A stretch of DNA of 51,702 bases from Gammaproteobacteria bacterium. GTDB lineage: Bacteria; Pseudomonadota; Gammaproteobacteria; Xanthomonadales; Marinicellaceae. Location: contig JAJRQG010000033.1 of assembly GCA_024280395.1 (NCBI GenBank), positions 1 to 51,702 on the forward strand, read 5' to 3'. Both the position numbers and the translations under genes were made by a program. The notes under the pieces are model-generated. The model did not search any database. It saw nothing but the letters and a program-made list of their open reading frames with translations, and was not told the DNA's origin. Shown in pieces: positions 2,530 through 44,676 of this stretch (its first letter is position 1; the number at the start of each line of letters is the position of its first letter).

Positions 2530-2549
2530 TGGTGCCCGGTCTCGGAATC
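2530..2549. other. Probable attachment-site core at the tRNA-Phe 3' end
   Basis: The integrase gene lies just beyond the 3' end of tRNA-Phe and the tRNA is intact including CCA. This is the usual result of integration by a P4-type recombinase using the tRNA 3' end as att site. The other att copy should lie left of the window, so the exact core cannot be delimited. Confidence 0.4.
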
Positions 2550-2605
2550 GAACCAAGGACACGAGGATTTTCAATCCTCTGCTCTACCGACTGAGCTAAC
2601 CGGGC
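2530..2605 (-). tRNA. tRNA-Phe (GAA)
   Basis: The minus strand from 2605 reads GCCCGGTTAGCTCAG with a complementary 3' acceptor CCGGGCACCA, so CCA is genome-encoded. The anticodon loop reads TTGAAAA, with GAA as anticodon. The T arm GGTTCGATTCC is standard. Total length is 76 nt. It is the insertion target of the integrative element on its 3' side and stays functional. Confidence 0.97.
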
Positions 2606-18251: not shown

Positions 18252-18338
18252 TGCTTGCCAAATATGAGTCACTCATTACACACATCGAGTAATGTCAATA
18301 TGTAAGTTAACTAAATTATTTTAGGGTTGATAGATAAT

Positions 18339-18354
18339 TGTGACCACTGTCACA
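18339..18354 (+). promoter_or_regulatory. CRP-type operator, class II position
   Basis: TGTGACCACTGTCACA is an exact TGTGA-N6-TCACA match to the CRP consensus. Its centre (18346.5) is about 41 bp upstream of the start predicted from TATAAT at 18375-18380. That is the class II spacing at which CRP activates, with no good -35 box present. Strong sequence evidence; activity is inferred. Confidence 0.75.
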
Positions 18355-18374
18355 GTTTGTTACAATTGGCTCGA

Positions 18375-18380
18375 TATAAT
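18375..18380 (+). promoter_or_regulatory. -10 box of the small RNA gene
   Basis: A consensus TATAAT, with no -35 hexamer at 16-18 bp, as expected for an activator-dependent promoter. Predicted transcript start is near 18387. Confidence 0.65.
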
Positions 18381-18386
18381 GAACTC

Positions 18387-18476
18387 AGTTGTTTTGATTG
18401 TGGTTCCCCCATTCCCTATCCAATTTCCACAATCAAAGCCATTACGAGAAGGCCGCATTTAGATGCGGCCTTTTTA
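18387..18476 (+). ncRNA. Candidate CRP-activated small RNA
   Basis: About 90 nt. Hairpin 1 is a perfect 11-bp stem, TTTGATTGTGG (18393-18403) with CCACAATCAAA (18427-18437). Its 23-nt loop is pyrimidine-rich (TTCCCCCATTCCC...). A single-stranded linker (GCCATTACGAG) follows. The terminator is a 10-bp stem, AAGGCCGCAT with ATGCGGCCTT (18449-18472), with loop TTAG and U run 18471-18475. There is no plausible ORF. The C-rich loop could pair with G-rich ribosome binding sites, as proposed for C-rich-loop small RNAs in other bacteria (inference). It does not resemble Spot 42 or CyaR as I know them. The next gene starts about 70 bp after the terminator. Confidence 0.7.
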
Positions 18477-18548
18477 CTTTCTAAGCCATCATCAATGTGC
18501 TAAAATCCGCATCCTTTAAAAGTTTCTGATTTCCAAAGGTTTTTAGCC

Positions 18549-19115
18549 ATGCAAACTCAATCAAAAAACAAGTTTTCGATTATCGCTCTCGCGGTTCTTT
18601 TTTTGGCTCCAGTTATTGTTGCCATAGTGATGAACTCCAAGCTTATCGATTATTCTCCAGATTCTTTTAAGAACCGTGGAGATTTCATTAAACCACCGAT
18701 AAAAATTACCGATAAAGAAAGTTTGAAACCCTATGAAGAGTTTTGGACTGTGGTCTACAGTCACACAGGAAATTGTGCAGATGAATGTTTAAAAATGTTG
18801 GATACACTTTATCGCATCAGATTGACCAAAGGCCATAAAATGAAACAGGTTAAATTGTTGGTATTACATCCTGAAGATAACAAGTTATCAATACCCAAGC
18901 AATACACTTCAATAGAACAGCAATCCTATTTTCAAACAGATGAAATAAATAAAGTACTCACAAACCTGTCCAATCAATCACTTGGTGGTGGAAAAGGCTT
19001 ATATCTATTGGCGCCGGAAGGTTTCTTAATGATGTCCTATCCAAAAGACTTCGAACCTCAAGATGTTATTAAAGATTTGGGCTTATTGTTGCGAGCTAGG
19101 AAAAATAACGGTTAA
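18549..19115 (+). CDS. Membrane-anchored thioredoxin-fold-like protein of the cytochrome oxidase assembly locus
   Basis: 188 aa. One N-terminal membrane helix (FSIIALAVLFLAPVIVAIVM) is followed by a periplasmic domain with WTVVYSHTGNCADECLKMLD, whose CxxxC sits where SCO-type copper chaperones place their metal-binding cysteines. It lacks clear SCO histidine motifs. Proteins of this type are found between surf1 and ctaA in many gammaproteobacterial oxidase clusters, and ctaA-ctaB follow here after one opposite-strand gene. Role in oxidase assembly is inferred from context. The 3' end overlaps the convergent amidotransferase gene by 4 bp. Confidence 0.7.
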   Translation: MQTQSKNKFSIIALAVLFLAPVIVAIVMNSKLIDYSPDSFKNRGDFIKPPIKITDKESLKPYEEFWTVVYSHTGNCADECLKMLDTLYRIRLTKGHKMKQVKLLVLHPEDNKLSIPKQYTSIEQQSYFQTDEINKVLTNLSNQSLGGGKGLYLLAPEGFLMMSYPKDFEPQDVIKDLGLLLRARKNNG

Positions 19116-21912: not shown

Positions 21913-22502
21913 ATGAGTGAAAAATCTAATCTAACTTGCATAATCATAGCAGGACCCAATGGTTCTAGTAAGACAACTTTTCACTGGATTATTTGCCAAA
22001 TATTGAAGGGTTTGACAATTTTATTAATGCAGATTTGATTGCTTCGGGGCTTTCTCCTTTATCGCCTGAAAAACATTTACTTACAGCCAGTAAATTATTT
22101 CTCAAAGAGATTAACCAAGCAGTTAAAAACAAAGAAAAATTTTCTTTTGAAACAACCTTATCTGGAAAATCCTATCTGAGATTTATAAAAAATTTAAAGC
22201 TATCTGGCTGGAAGGTGGAACTGATTTATCTGTTTTTGCCTTCAATAGAAATGTCTATCAGTCGAGTTGCCGAACGCGTGAAACATGGAGGCCATAATAT
22301 TCCAAAAGAAACAATAATTCGTCGTTACCCTCGAAGTCTTGATAATTTGATCAATCATTATGCTAAACTATGTGATTCAACCATATGTATTGACAACTCC
22401 AATCAGAATCAAGAAATTATATTTACACAAAGCTTTGATAAAAGGATTGTCAAGAATGAAAACCTGTATCGGAATTTAATTAAAGGTATCAATTATGCCT
22501 AA
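21913..22502 (+). pseudogene. Zeta-toxin-family P-loop kinase, frameshifted
   Basis: From ATG 21913 the frame gives MSEKSNLTCIIIAGPNGSSK then TTF: a beta strand and Walker A (usual GPNGSGKTT; here GSSKTT). The continuation DYLPNIEGFDNFINADLIAS is one base out of register; it is open from about 21987 to 22502. Adding one T to the four-T run at 21978-21981 restores TTFSLDYLPNIEG. The second part has the family's FSFETTLSGKSYLRFIK, ERVKHGGHNIPKETIIRRYP and a C-terminal helix. Zeta/PezT toxins phosphorylate UDP-GlcNAc. The gene starts 6 bp after ctaB and overlaps a 57-aa gene downstream. Confidence 0.75.
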
Positions 22503-30264: not shown

Positions 30265-31260
30265 TTAGACTACTTGATTTCTGCCCATGTTTTTTGCTTG
30301 GTACAGAGATTTGTCTGCTGCCTCTATCCATTCTCTCAATATTGTTTGGTTTGTGTTGAGTTCGGCTATACCGATACTGACTGTACAATTGAGTTGATGG
30401 GCAGATTTTATTTGAATTTTATTTGTTTGATGACTAATTTGTATGGCCAAAGATTTGGCTTCTGAGTGATCCAGTGGCAGTGCTATGGCAAATTCATCTC
30501 CTCCAAATCTGCCGGCAATCGCTGTATTGGGTATGGAGTCTTTTATGACTTCGGTGATGGCAAGCAGTACGTCGTCTCCAATTGAATGGCCATATTTATC
30601 ATTGATTTCTTTAAAGTAGTCTATGTCAATAAATAACATGGATGCAATAATTTCGTTTTTTTTGCACTGTTGCATTAAGTCAGTAGCTTTTTCTTGCCAG
30701 TATCTCCGAGTATAAAGAGTAGTTAATGAGTCTTGTTGACTCAGCTTGCTGAATTTGATGTTTTGAAACTGTACACGACGAACCAGCTGATAACTGCCCA
30801 TGCTAACAACCAAGGTATGGATGATAAGTATCGGCAAACACGCCAATATGACCGGCATACTTGTGTTGGGGTGAAATGCAAAGCCTGTAAAGAACGAAAA
30901 CAATATTGTACCAGCTAAAATAAAAGGCAATGAATACAACCAAAGATTTTTAATACCGCTGCCAACTTTATCAGCCAGAGTAATCGAGGGCAGTAAGACA
31001 GAAGGCAGCAGGTTGAAGTGCAACAGGGGAGCCCAACTGCCTGCGATAAAGGAATCAAAGATTAAATTATTGCGTTCTGTGATATAGGGCTGTTTGCTAT
31101 TTTTAGCTACAATAAATGCGACATGTGGCCAAAGATAACAAACGAATATCCACCATAGCCACGAATATATTGGGGCGTTTATCTCTCTTAATACAACTGC
31201 TATGGGTAGCCCACCCAAAGCCATGCCCAAAATTCTAAATTTATAAACCCTTTGAGGCAT
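30265..31260 (-). CDS. Membrane diguanylate cyclase (MASE2-GGDEF)
   Basis: 331 aa. Residues 1-160 form a MASE2-type membrane sensor (KFRILGMALGGLPIAVVLRE; TERNNLIFDSFIAGSWAPLL). Residues 170-331 are a GGDEF domain with SLTTLYTRRYW, the metal site IDIDYFKEINDKYGHSIGDD and an intact GGDEF at 253-257. The inhibitory RxxD site upstream of GGDEF reads IPNT, so product inhibition is probably lost. Makes c-di-GMP and may promote attachment or pilus use. Confidence 0.92.
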   Translation of the reverse strand: MPQRVYKFRILGMALGGLPIAVVLREINAPIYSWLWWIFVCYLWPHVAFIVAKNSKQPYITERNNLIFDSFIAGSWAPLLHFNLLPSVLLPSITLADKVGSGIKNLWLYSLPFILAGTILFSFFTGFAFHPNTSMPVILACLPILIIHTLVVSMGSYQLVRRVQFQNIKFSKLSQQDSLTTLYTRRYWQEKATDLMQQCKKNEIIASMLFIDIDYFKEINDKYGHSIGDDVLLAITEVIKDSIPNTAIAGRFGGDEFAIALPLDHSEAKSLAIQISHQTNKIQIKSAHQLNCTVSIGIAELNTNQTILREWIEAADKSLYQAKNMGRNQVV

Positions 31261-43938: not shown

Positions 43939-44676
43939 TTAGTGTTCAATAATTTCTGACAATTCAGATTTATCTAAGATTGTTAGAATATGCTTACTGT
44001 ATTTAACCACTTCTTGTTTTTGTAATTTTTTAAAAATTCTACTTAATGTTTCTTCAGCCATACCTAAATAACTGGCTATGTCTCTTTGTGAAATTGGTAA
44101 GAAAAACTCTTCATCTGAATACCCTCTGGCTTTAAACCTTCTTGAGATGTTTTTGATAAATAATGCCAATTTTGCCTTACTGCCAAGATCTAAATGGTTC
44201 TTTTTACAATTAAAAATTTCTTTGCTCATAACTTTTAATAAGTTTCTCTGGATAACAGGATAATCTTCGGCAATATCAAGTAATCCATTGTACGGTATTT
44301 TACAAAAAGAGCTCATGGCTAGAGCTGTCGAAGTTGATTGGTAAACATTAGAGTGTATGCCATCTAAGCCCATAATCTCTCCAGGCAGGTGAAAACTAAT
44401 GATTCTTTCTTTGCCACTTTCATCTACTACAGTTGTTTTAAACATTCCTGAGTGAACAACAAACAGAGATGTAAATGCTTCACCTAAAGTAAATACAGTT
44501 TGATTTTTATTGGTGATTTTAGATGAAGTGATAACAGATTCAAGTTCTGCTAATTCATCATCGTTTAATCCTGAAGGTAAACACAGTGAATTAACAGCAC
44601 ATTTTTGACAACGAGACTTTGTATTCAACAATTTTTTATTAAAATGTGCGATTTGTTGTTGCTCTGAATTTAACAA
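43939..44676 (-). CDS. fnr: Fnr/Anr-type oxygen-sensing regulator
   Basis: 245 aa from TTG 44676 (MLNSEQQQIAHFNKKLLNTK); AAGAGG sits 6 nt upstream and no ATG is available. The [4Fe-4S] ligands are Cys23, 26, 32 (SRCQKCAVNSLC) and 125 (SSFCKIP). A cyclic-nucleotide-type barrel and HTH follow; recognition helix AEETLSRIFKKL keeps the E..SR residues that read TTGAT. Divergent from ccoN, whose promoter carries an FNR box. Under low oxygen it should activate the cbb3 operon. Confidence 0.93.
   Translation of the reverse strand: MLNSEQQQIAHFNKKLLNTKSRCQKCAVNSLCLPSGLNDDELAELESVITSSKITNKNQTVFTLGEAFTSLFVVHSGMFKTTVVDESGKERIISFHLPGEIMGLDGIHSNVYQSTSTALAMSSFCKIPYNGLLDIAEDYPVIQRNLLKVMSKEIFNCKKNHLDLGSKAKLALFIKNISRRFKARGYSDEEFFLPISQRDIASYLGMAEETLSRIFKKLQKQEVVKYSKHILTILDKSELSEIIEH

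Follow-up and report, generated by a model that had tools for sequence, protein, structure and literature searches.

A small RNA with a C-rich loop and a class II CRP/Clp-type promoter is conserved in three genera of one gammaproteobacterial family

Results

An sRNA gene with its own promoter and terminator

The window, by which we mean the whole 51.7-kb stretch of DNA that was analyzed (51,702 nucleotides), contains a predicted small RNA (sRNA) gene laid out as an operator, a -10 box, a long stem carrying a C-rich loop, and an intrinsic terminator (Table 1). An earlier note made from the sequence alone had described an exact TGTGA-N6-TCACA site followed 20 bp later by TATAAT, class II spacing of about -41 without a -35, and a 10-bp terminator stem with a U run. 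Each of these elements is present: the operator is centered at ~ -40.5 if transcription starts at 18387, which is a class II position, no separate conserved -35 accompanies it, and the terminator stem has 10 Watson-Crick pairs (13 when the U run pairs too). The perfect 11-bp hairpin that the note had placed before the terminator required correction, as the C-rich loop is there but the stem that carries it is 13 bp long with one G.U pair.

Table 1 Features of the sRNA locus (positions in the window)
Feature	Position	Strand	Basis or remark
CRP/Clp-type operator TGTGACCACTGTCACA	18339..18354	+	exact; TGTGA-N6-TCAC at the sRNA in 28/28 family copies (10 window genus, 16 sister genus, 2 third genus)
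-10 box TATAAT of class II promoter, without separate conserved -35	18375..18380	+	20 bp 3' of operator
Small RNA, ~89 nt, predicted start	18387..18475	+	fold and covariation
Stem 1, 5' arm (13 bp including one G.U)	18391..18403	+	predicted fold; covariation
Loop UUCCCCCAUUCCCUAUCCAAUUU, 23 nt, C-rich, G-free, presumed pairing element	18404..18426	+	predicted fold
Invariant loop core CCCCATTCCCTAT	18407..18419	+	13 consecutive columns identical in 10/10 genus members
Stem 1, 3' arm	18427..18439	+	predicted fold; covariation
Intrinsic terminator hairpin and U run	18446..18475	+	predicted fold; covariation
Possible extended -10 (TGCTAAAAT) of next gene, 3' of terminator	18501..18506	+	read in sequence; no entry in promoter scan

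The operator is the sole exact copy of its pattern in the window, where ~0.06 would be expected by base composition; when up to one mismatch is allowed, the window holds 2 sites vs 2.09 expected, which is chance level. Across 653 kb of sampled sequence (the window and 40 further stretches), the exact pattern occurs 6 times, compared with 0, 1, 1, and 1 occurrences of four control palindromes matched in composition. A promoter scan listed one other weak pair overlapping the operator (TTGTGA-17-TACAAT, 18338-18366), whose TACAAT is not conserved in relatives. Folding of positions 18387-18475 gave -35.9 kcal/mol (z = -8.35), and 0/200 shuffled sequences folded equally well. The terminator of the sRNA was not picked up by a simple terminator scan of the window. 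The statement that the locus has no ORF was right in substance: the only plus-strand frames across the sRNA are short ones with TTG or GTG starts (58, 40, and 28 aa), and none is conserved because the length of the loop differs by a few nucleotides among relatives. A coding RNA was thus ruled out.

Both stems covary within the genus

When 61 genomes (60 relatives plus the genome that contains the window) were searched at the DNA level, four clear matches lay outside the window genome, all in the same genus, and three weaker ones proved on inspection to be the same locus. In a MAFFT alignment of these eight sequences, the stem varies, but both CRP half-sites, the -10, the terminator, and the 13 loop bases CCCCATTCCCTAT are conserved. 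Double changes occur in 12 of 25 pairs, a number reached by 0/500 shuffles, and slid versions of the structure reached at most 4; this alignment was not fitted to the structure, which was itself taken from one of its rows.

A covariance model, R1, matched 10/11 genus genomes (E <= 2.3e-20), two of them independently, as R1 had been trained on 8 of these 10 loci. The sole genus genome without a match is 74% complete. Among the ten genus sequences, 11/25 pairs are doubly changed (0/500 shuffles), namely 8/14 pairs of helix 1 and 3/11 pairs of helix 2, in an alignment fitted to the structure, which favors its pair count. The first C of the loop core CCCCATTCCCTAT is paired in the predicted fold of one genus copy (L060). 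Conservation of the CRP site and of both stems in relatives was one point on which the earlier note had staked its reading, and the outcome is favorable: the operator is kept and both stems covary.

Searched over 398 genomes of the order with stricter filters that lose weak matches, R1 matched 12, all within the family: the ten genus members, an sRNA of a sister genus (G020), and a terminator-only match (G024, L075). A broader R1 tally of 24/33 genomes includes weak matches of this terminator type. Inspection of the weak matches L066-L072, L075, and L076 led us to reject them as copies of the sRNA, as they are terminators without a CRP site or C-rich loop.

The same architecture with other C-rich loops in sister genera

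The weak R1 matches in a sister genus that did contain an sRNA share the same plan with another C-rich loop, CACACACCCTTT(T)CCCCC. A second covariance model, R2, built from five sister-genus sequences, matched 16/18 sister-genus genomes (E <= 2.3e-18), 11 of which were new to the model, as well as 2/3 genomes of a third genus. The covariance search of relatives that the earlier note had proposed thus found the RNA in 10/11 genomes of the window genus with R1 and in 16/18 of the sister genus with R2. The 16 sister-genus sequences have 8/24 pairs doubly changed, a count reached by 8/500 shuffles; their covariation score was reached by 0/500.

R2 also recovered the R1 locus in 6/11 window-genus genomes, the window's own genome being unmatched at E <= 0.01, and 10/10 supplied genus loci, that of the window included, were matched when the search space was smaller. 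Its matches in G006 and G008 lie at positions other than their sRNA. Across the class, R2 matched 0/274 genomes under stricter filters, a null that says little because the window's own genome was also missed under the same filters. Homology across genera is not proven by the models alone, because the promoter and terminator carry much of the R2 score and because, in a joint 28-row alignment, the stems and loops of the window genus were not consistently lined up; this alignment was not used for pair counts.

The 28 copies (10 from the window genus, 16 from the sister genus, and 2 from the third) can also be compared by their parts. A TANA(A/C)T box begins 36 nt from the start of the operator in 27/28 copies and 37 nt from it in the remaining one. 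The largest predicted loop is C-rich in 28/28 copies and 14-26 nt long; it is G-free in 27 and has one G in the other. Third-genus loops contain CCCCCATTCCCT or CCCCATTCCCT, which is most of the window-genus core, and so add to the case for homology across genera, as does a groEL neighborhood shared with part of the sister genus. By genus, the loop types are CCCCCAUUCCCUAU, CACACACCCUUUUCCCCCUUU, and a third in which a further C-rich block is joined to most of the first core. An architecture pattern (site, 20-22 bp, TANNNT, 20-50 nt, CCCC) was found in 28/33 family genomes (by genus 10/11, 16/18, 2/3, and 0/1) vs 8/266 genomes outside the family, and a reversed control in 4/299. A scan of an 84,980-species collection for AGTTGT-N12-24-CCCCATTCCCTAT yielded 19 stretches, 8 with the CRP site and stems and 11 without the CRP site.

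Sequence comparison thus makes it nearly certain that the sRNA gene is real and that a conserved promoter stands in front of it. It further shows that three genera of one family have retained, at differing places in the chromosome, the combination of a predicted class II promoter, a covarying stem with a C-rich and nearly G-free loop, and a terminator.

Neighboring genes differ between genera

The next gene, at 18549 on the same strand and 73 bp downstream, is PA0111-like by a weak match below the cut-off. In the window it lies within a cytochrome-oxidase assembly cluster, where the recognized neighbors are cytochrome b561, the PA0111-like gene (weak), GATase, COX15, and UbiA/CtaB. A TTG-start ORF at 21993-22502 (+), flanked by ctaB and a TatD-type DNase gene, has a weak Zeta-toxin-type kinase match. 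A homologue of the 18549 gene adjoins the sRNA in 8/10 genus members; in the other 2/10 the next gene is convergent (in G002, it encodes a DUF4412 protein). In the sister genus, tusA (TusA) follows the sRNA in 15/16 loci, and the upstream genes that were recognized encode Cpn60/GroEL in 7/16 loci and an RpoH-like sigma-70-type factor in 4. The third-genus sRNA likewise sits after groEL, and Adk is among the neighbors of the sRNA in the sister genera. The differing neighbors and the convergent gene in 2/10 genus members indicate that the RNA is a unit of its own.

A Clp-like protein is the probable activator

TGTGA-N6-TCACA is the classical CRP site. A Crp-domain search of the genome found two proteins. 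One, encoded in the window at 43939-44676 on the minus strand, is FNR-like, with three Cys near its N-terminus and an FNR subfamily score of 192 bits, short of the 228 bits that NCBIfam sets as cut-off. The other, encoded elsewhere (L100:919-1659), has Xanthomonas Clp as its best PDB match (3iwz, E 3.3e-76; Vfr and E. coli CRP rank lower), is identical to Clp at 118/210 residues, and has the identical recognition stretch SREMAGRVLK. Because this non-FNR-like protein carries the Clp recognition helix and the operator is in an activating position, the sequences argue strongly that the Clp/CRP protein activates the sRNA. As in the Clp regulon, the operator is near -41 with the -10 at a fixed spacing, and residues that would contact c-di-GMP are kept in the regulator.

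According to PMC6637768, D70, R154, R166, and D170 of Clp are c-di-GMP sites, E99 is further important, and D162, V165, and R195 are among five promoter-binding residues. Set against these, the CRP homologue keeps D70, E99, R150, R154, R166, and D170 of Clp, and differs at 3/5 of the residues termed promoter-binding there (D162G, V165S, and R195K). At positions 99 and 154 it has the residues of Clp (E and R), in contrast to S and D in Vfr. Clp binds DNA without an effector and c-di-GMP inhibits this binding, as the excerpt of PMC3528676 describes; by analogy with Xanthomonas Clp, the sRNA would be made when c-di-GMP is low. The earlier note had proposed a carbon-state regulator. That input has become doubtful because the CRP homologue most resembles Xanthomonas Clp and retains the c-di-GMP residues; a low level of c-di-GMP is no less likely an input than carbon state. 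Room is left for cAMP or cGMP because NCBIfam assigns the homologue to a cAMP-type CRP equivalog (305.6 bits vs a cut-off of 266) and the genome encodes a protein that combines an FHA domain with an intact class III nucleotide cyclase domain (L215:1504-2382, G000:C40). GGDEF proteins are also present in the genome, one of them inside the window.

The loop and its candidate targets

The genome contains hfq. Duplex energies of the loop were computed against 530 start regions from 653 kb, which is ~17% of one genome and includes the window, with start codons chosen mechanically, and in this sample they were no better than those of shuffled loops. At <= -14 kcal/mol there were 26 real duplexes vs a shuffled mean of 22.8 (6/20 shuffles equaled or exceeded the real count), and at <= -10 there were 80 vs 103, that is, fewer. 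Of 60 shuffles, 25% reached the level of the best duplex and 8% that of the third-best. The many targets that had been suggested for the loop are thus not borne out as any excess of complementary start regions among these 530 genes.

The exact complement GGGAATGGGG occurs at 24 sites in the 11 genus genomes, 10 of which are the sRNA's own antisense strand. The other 14 sites, in 7/11 genomes, compare with 4 for a reversed control; 13 of the 14 overlap an ORF of at least 60 aa on either strand and one lies outside. Across the 11 genomes, no GGGAATGGGG site fell within -45 to +30 of a clear gene and no start-site target recurred. These tests, though negative, are weak because start codons were assigned mechanically in a duplex sample from ~17% of a single genome, and a single target site shared across genera is not to be expected because the loop differs between them.

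Comparison with known small RNAs

At the gathering cut-off, Rfam 15 matched only one tRNA in the whole window, a tRNA-Phe (GAA) at 2530-2605 (-). At E <= 10, the region 18300-18500 gave 26 matches, all below cut-off, such as GcvB (20.8 of 42 bits), RsaE (20.8 of 79), and BjrC1505 (20.4 of 50). Membership in a known Rfam family was thus rejected, in keeping with the view that no RNA of this layout had been described: this is a well-supported sRNA family that is absent from Rfam 15. In the full-text literature searched, outside which most subscription journals lie, we found no small RNAs of Marinicella or noncoding RNA of Lysobacterales, no Clp-regulated sRNA in Xanthomonas campestris, and no report of a C-rich loop with CRP.

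One of the nearest known RNAs is sX13. As far as the excerpt of PMC3771888 describes it, sX13 comprises three stems and as many C-rich loops, lies beside polA, and is expressed constitutively with modulation by stress, and through its loops it represses mRNAs that carry G-rich (4G) motifs close to the start. Both RNAs are strongly structured with a C-rich apical loop, and Xanthomonas, the host of sX13, apparently belongs to the same order (Lysobacterales). Unlike sX13 as described in that excerpt, our sRNA folds into one C-rich stem-loop plus a terminator (in the window, seven genus relatives, and three further loci), has neighbors other than polA in the window and the sister genera, and has a CRP/Clp-type promoter. 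Down to E = 10, cmscan of the region returned no sX13 match, if the library includes an sX13 model.

CyaR, an enterobacterial CRP-dependent small RNA that pairs with the Shine-Dalgarno region according to the excerpt of PMC11795201, resembles our sRNA in having a CRP-type site in what would be an activating position; here the site, spacing, and -10 recur in 28/28 copies. CyaR differs in its loop, the regulator here is likely Clp-like, and no CyaR match appeared among the Rfam matches for the window or for 18300-18500 (E <= 10). Spot 42, which the excerpt of PMC3771888 names beside sX13, and HPnc5490 and RNAIII, cited there for C-rich loops aimed at G-rich mRNA sites, were also considered. HPnc5490 and RNAIII come from distant bacteria and share no demonstrated sequence with our sRNA, and Spot 42 lies at polA and is absent from the Rfam matches here. 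As a small RNA, Spot 42 is tied to CRP and carbon metabolism, a likeness to our sRNA, yet CRP represses it. RNAs of the HPnc5490 and RNAIII type are under other control. We assign the RNA to neither sX13 nor CyaR, whose defining features it lacks, and regard it as a new sRNA family whose general type of regulator is already known.

Discussion

What the earlier reading proposed survives as an independent sRNA gene with a class II CRP-type promoter and a C-rich loop; its carbon-state input is doubtful, and its many targets found no support among the 530 genes. The explanation that we favor, and consider probable when taken as a whole, is a Clp/CRP-driven, trans-acting antisense sRNA. A stand-alone RNA of ~89 nt would be switched on by the Clp/CRP protein at the operator and, by analogy with Xanthomonas Clp, would be produced as c-di-GMP falls. 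Its long stem would hold open the C-rich loop, which may pair with runs rich in G at ribosome-binding sites or in their vicinity and so block translation, much as sX13 does with its C-rich loops and CyaR, itself CRP-driven, does at the Shine-Dalgarno sequence. These analogies suggest that the loop acts as an antisense element on ribosome sites rich in G, and silencing of mRNAs with such sites is probable because the RNA presents a C-rich loop.

Two accounts would deny the locus a free RNA. The elements might have come together by chance, and taken singly they are unremarkable, as the chance-level number of one-mismatch sites illustrates; their joint conservation and covariation refute this account, to which we assign a negligible probability. 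The RNA might instead be the 5' leader or attenuator of the PA0111-like gene at 18549, a reading suggested by the shared strand, the 73-bp distance, and the recurrence of that gene beside the sRNA in most of the genus. A strong terminator closes the RNA before the gene is reached, and tusA takes the place of the 18549 homologue in 15/16 sister-genus loci; in the two genus members with a convergent downstream gene, a leader role is excluded. We therefore rejected a leader role as very improbable, since the RNA occurs with other neighbors.

The remaining alternatives accept the RNA and differ over its input or its loop. Driven by cAMP-bound CRP, the same RNA would report carbon or energy state, in a manner compatible with the antisense mode. 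The classical form of the operator, the CRP equivalog score, and the cyclase-FHA protein all speak for this input, whereas the ranking of Clp before Vfr and E. coli CRP as nearest solved relative, the Clp-type residues at 99 and 154, and the GGDEF proteins speak against it, and we regard cAMP as plausible rather than probable. The C-rich loop could also be a decoy that titrates an RNA-binding protein instead of an antisense element. From genus to genus the loop changes in length and sequence but remains C-rich and without G, as would be expected if a protein read its composition, and the target tests were negative. Yet the run of 13 bases that never vary within the genus resembles a fixed pairing seed. 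Known protein decoys usually repeat their motif, and here there is a single such loop per RNA; nor does the loop contain GGA, the CsrA/RsmA motif. A decoy is thus unlikely, and the antisense sRNA remains our preferred reading.

A bolder version of the antisense reading is a family-wide translational switch gated by c-di-GMP, in which Clp, freed at low c-di-GMP, would induce a single RNA with a C-rich loop in each genome. This RNA would silence a set of mRNAs whose ribosome sites are G-rich, and its loop would have been re-tuned between genera. We put this forward tentatively, as a possibility that is doubtful in its full extent. If true, it would be a natural experiment in which the seed of an sRNA shifts and its signal, promoter, spacing, and stem do not, the loop remaining C-rich and G-free. 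Because the loop changes between genera and the promoter, stem, and terminator are kept, the family offers a clean comparative test of seed and target co-evolution, and the sRNA would directly connect post-transcriptional control with the Clp/CRP regulator.

Several minor observations touch on the same regulator. The window encodes a MASE2-GGDEF protein at 30265-31260 (-), a likely diguanylate cyclase ~12 kb from the sRNA, which is relevant if Clp senses c-di-GMP. A second recurring CRP site with a -10 at the same spacing precedes a similar protein of ~480-500 aa in three genus members, at G010:C59 (L115), G008:C436 (L127), and G003:C64 (L120), and may mark a further Clp target; the L115 protein is a DUF1631 protein. 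At G000:C72:7967 (L123, L221), a CRP-type site with a -10-like box lies before a gene for a di-haem cytochrome c peroxidase.
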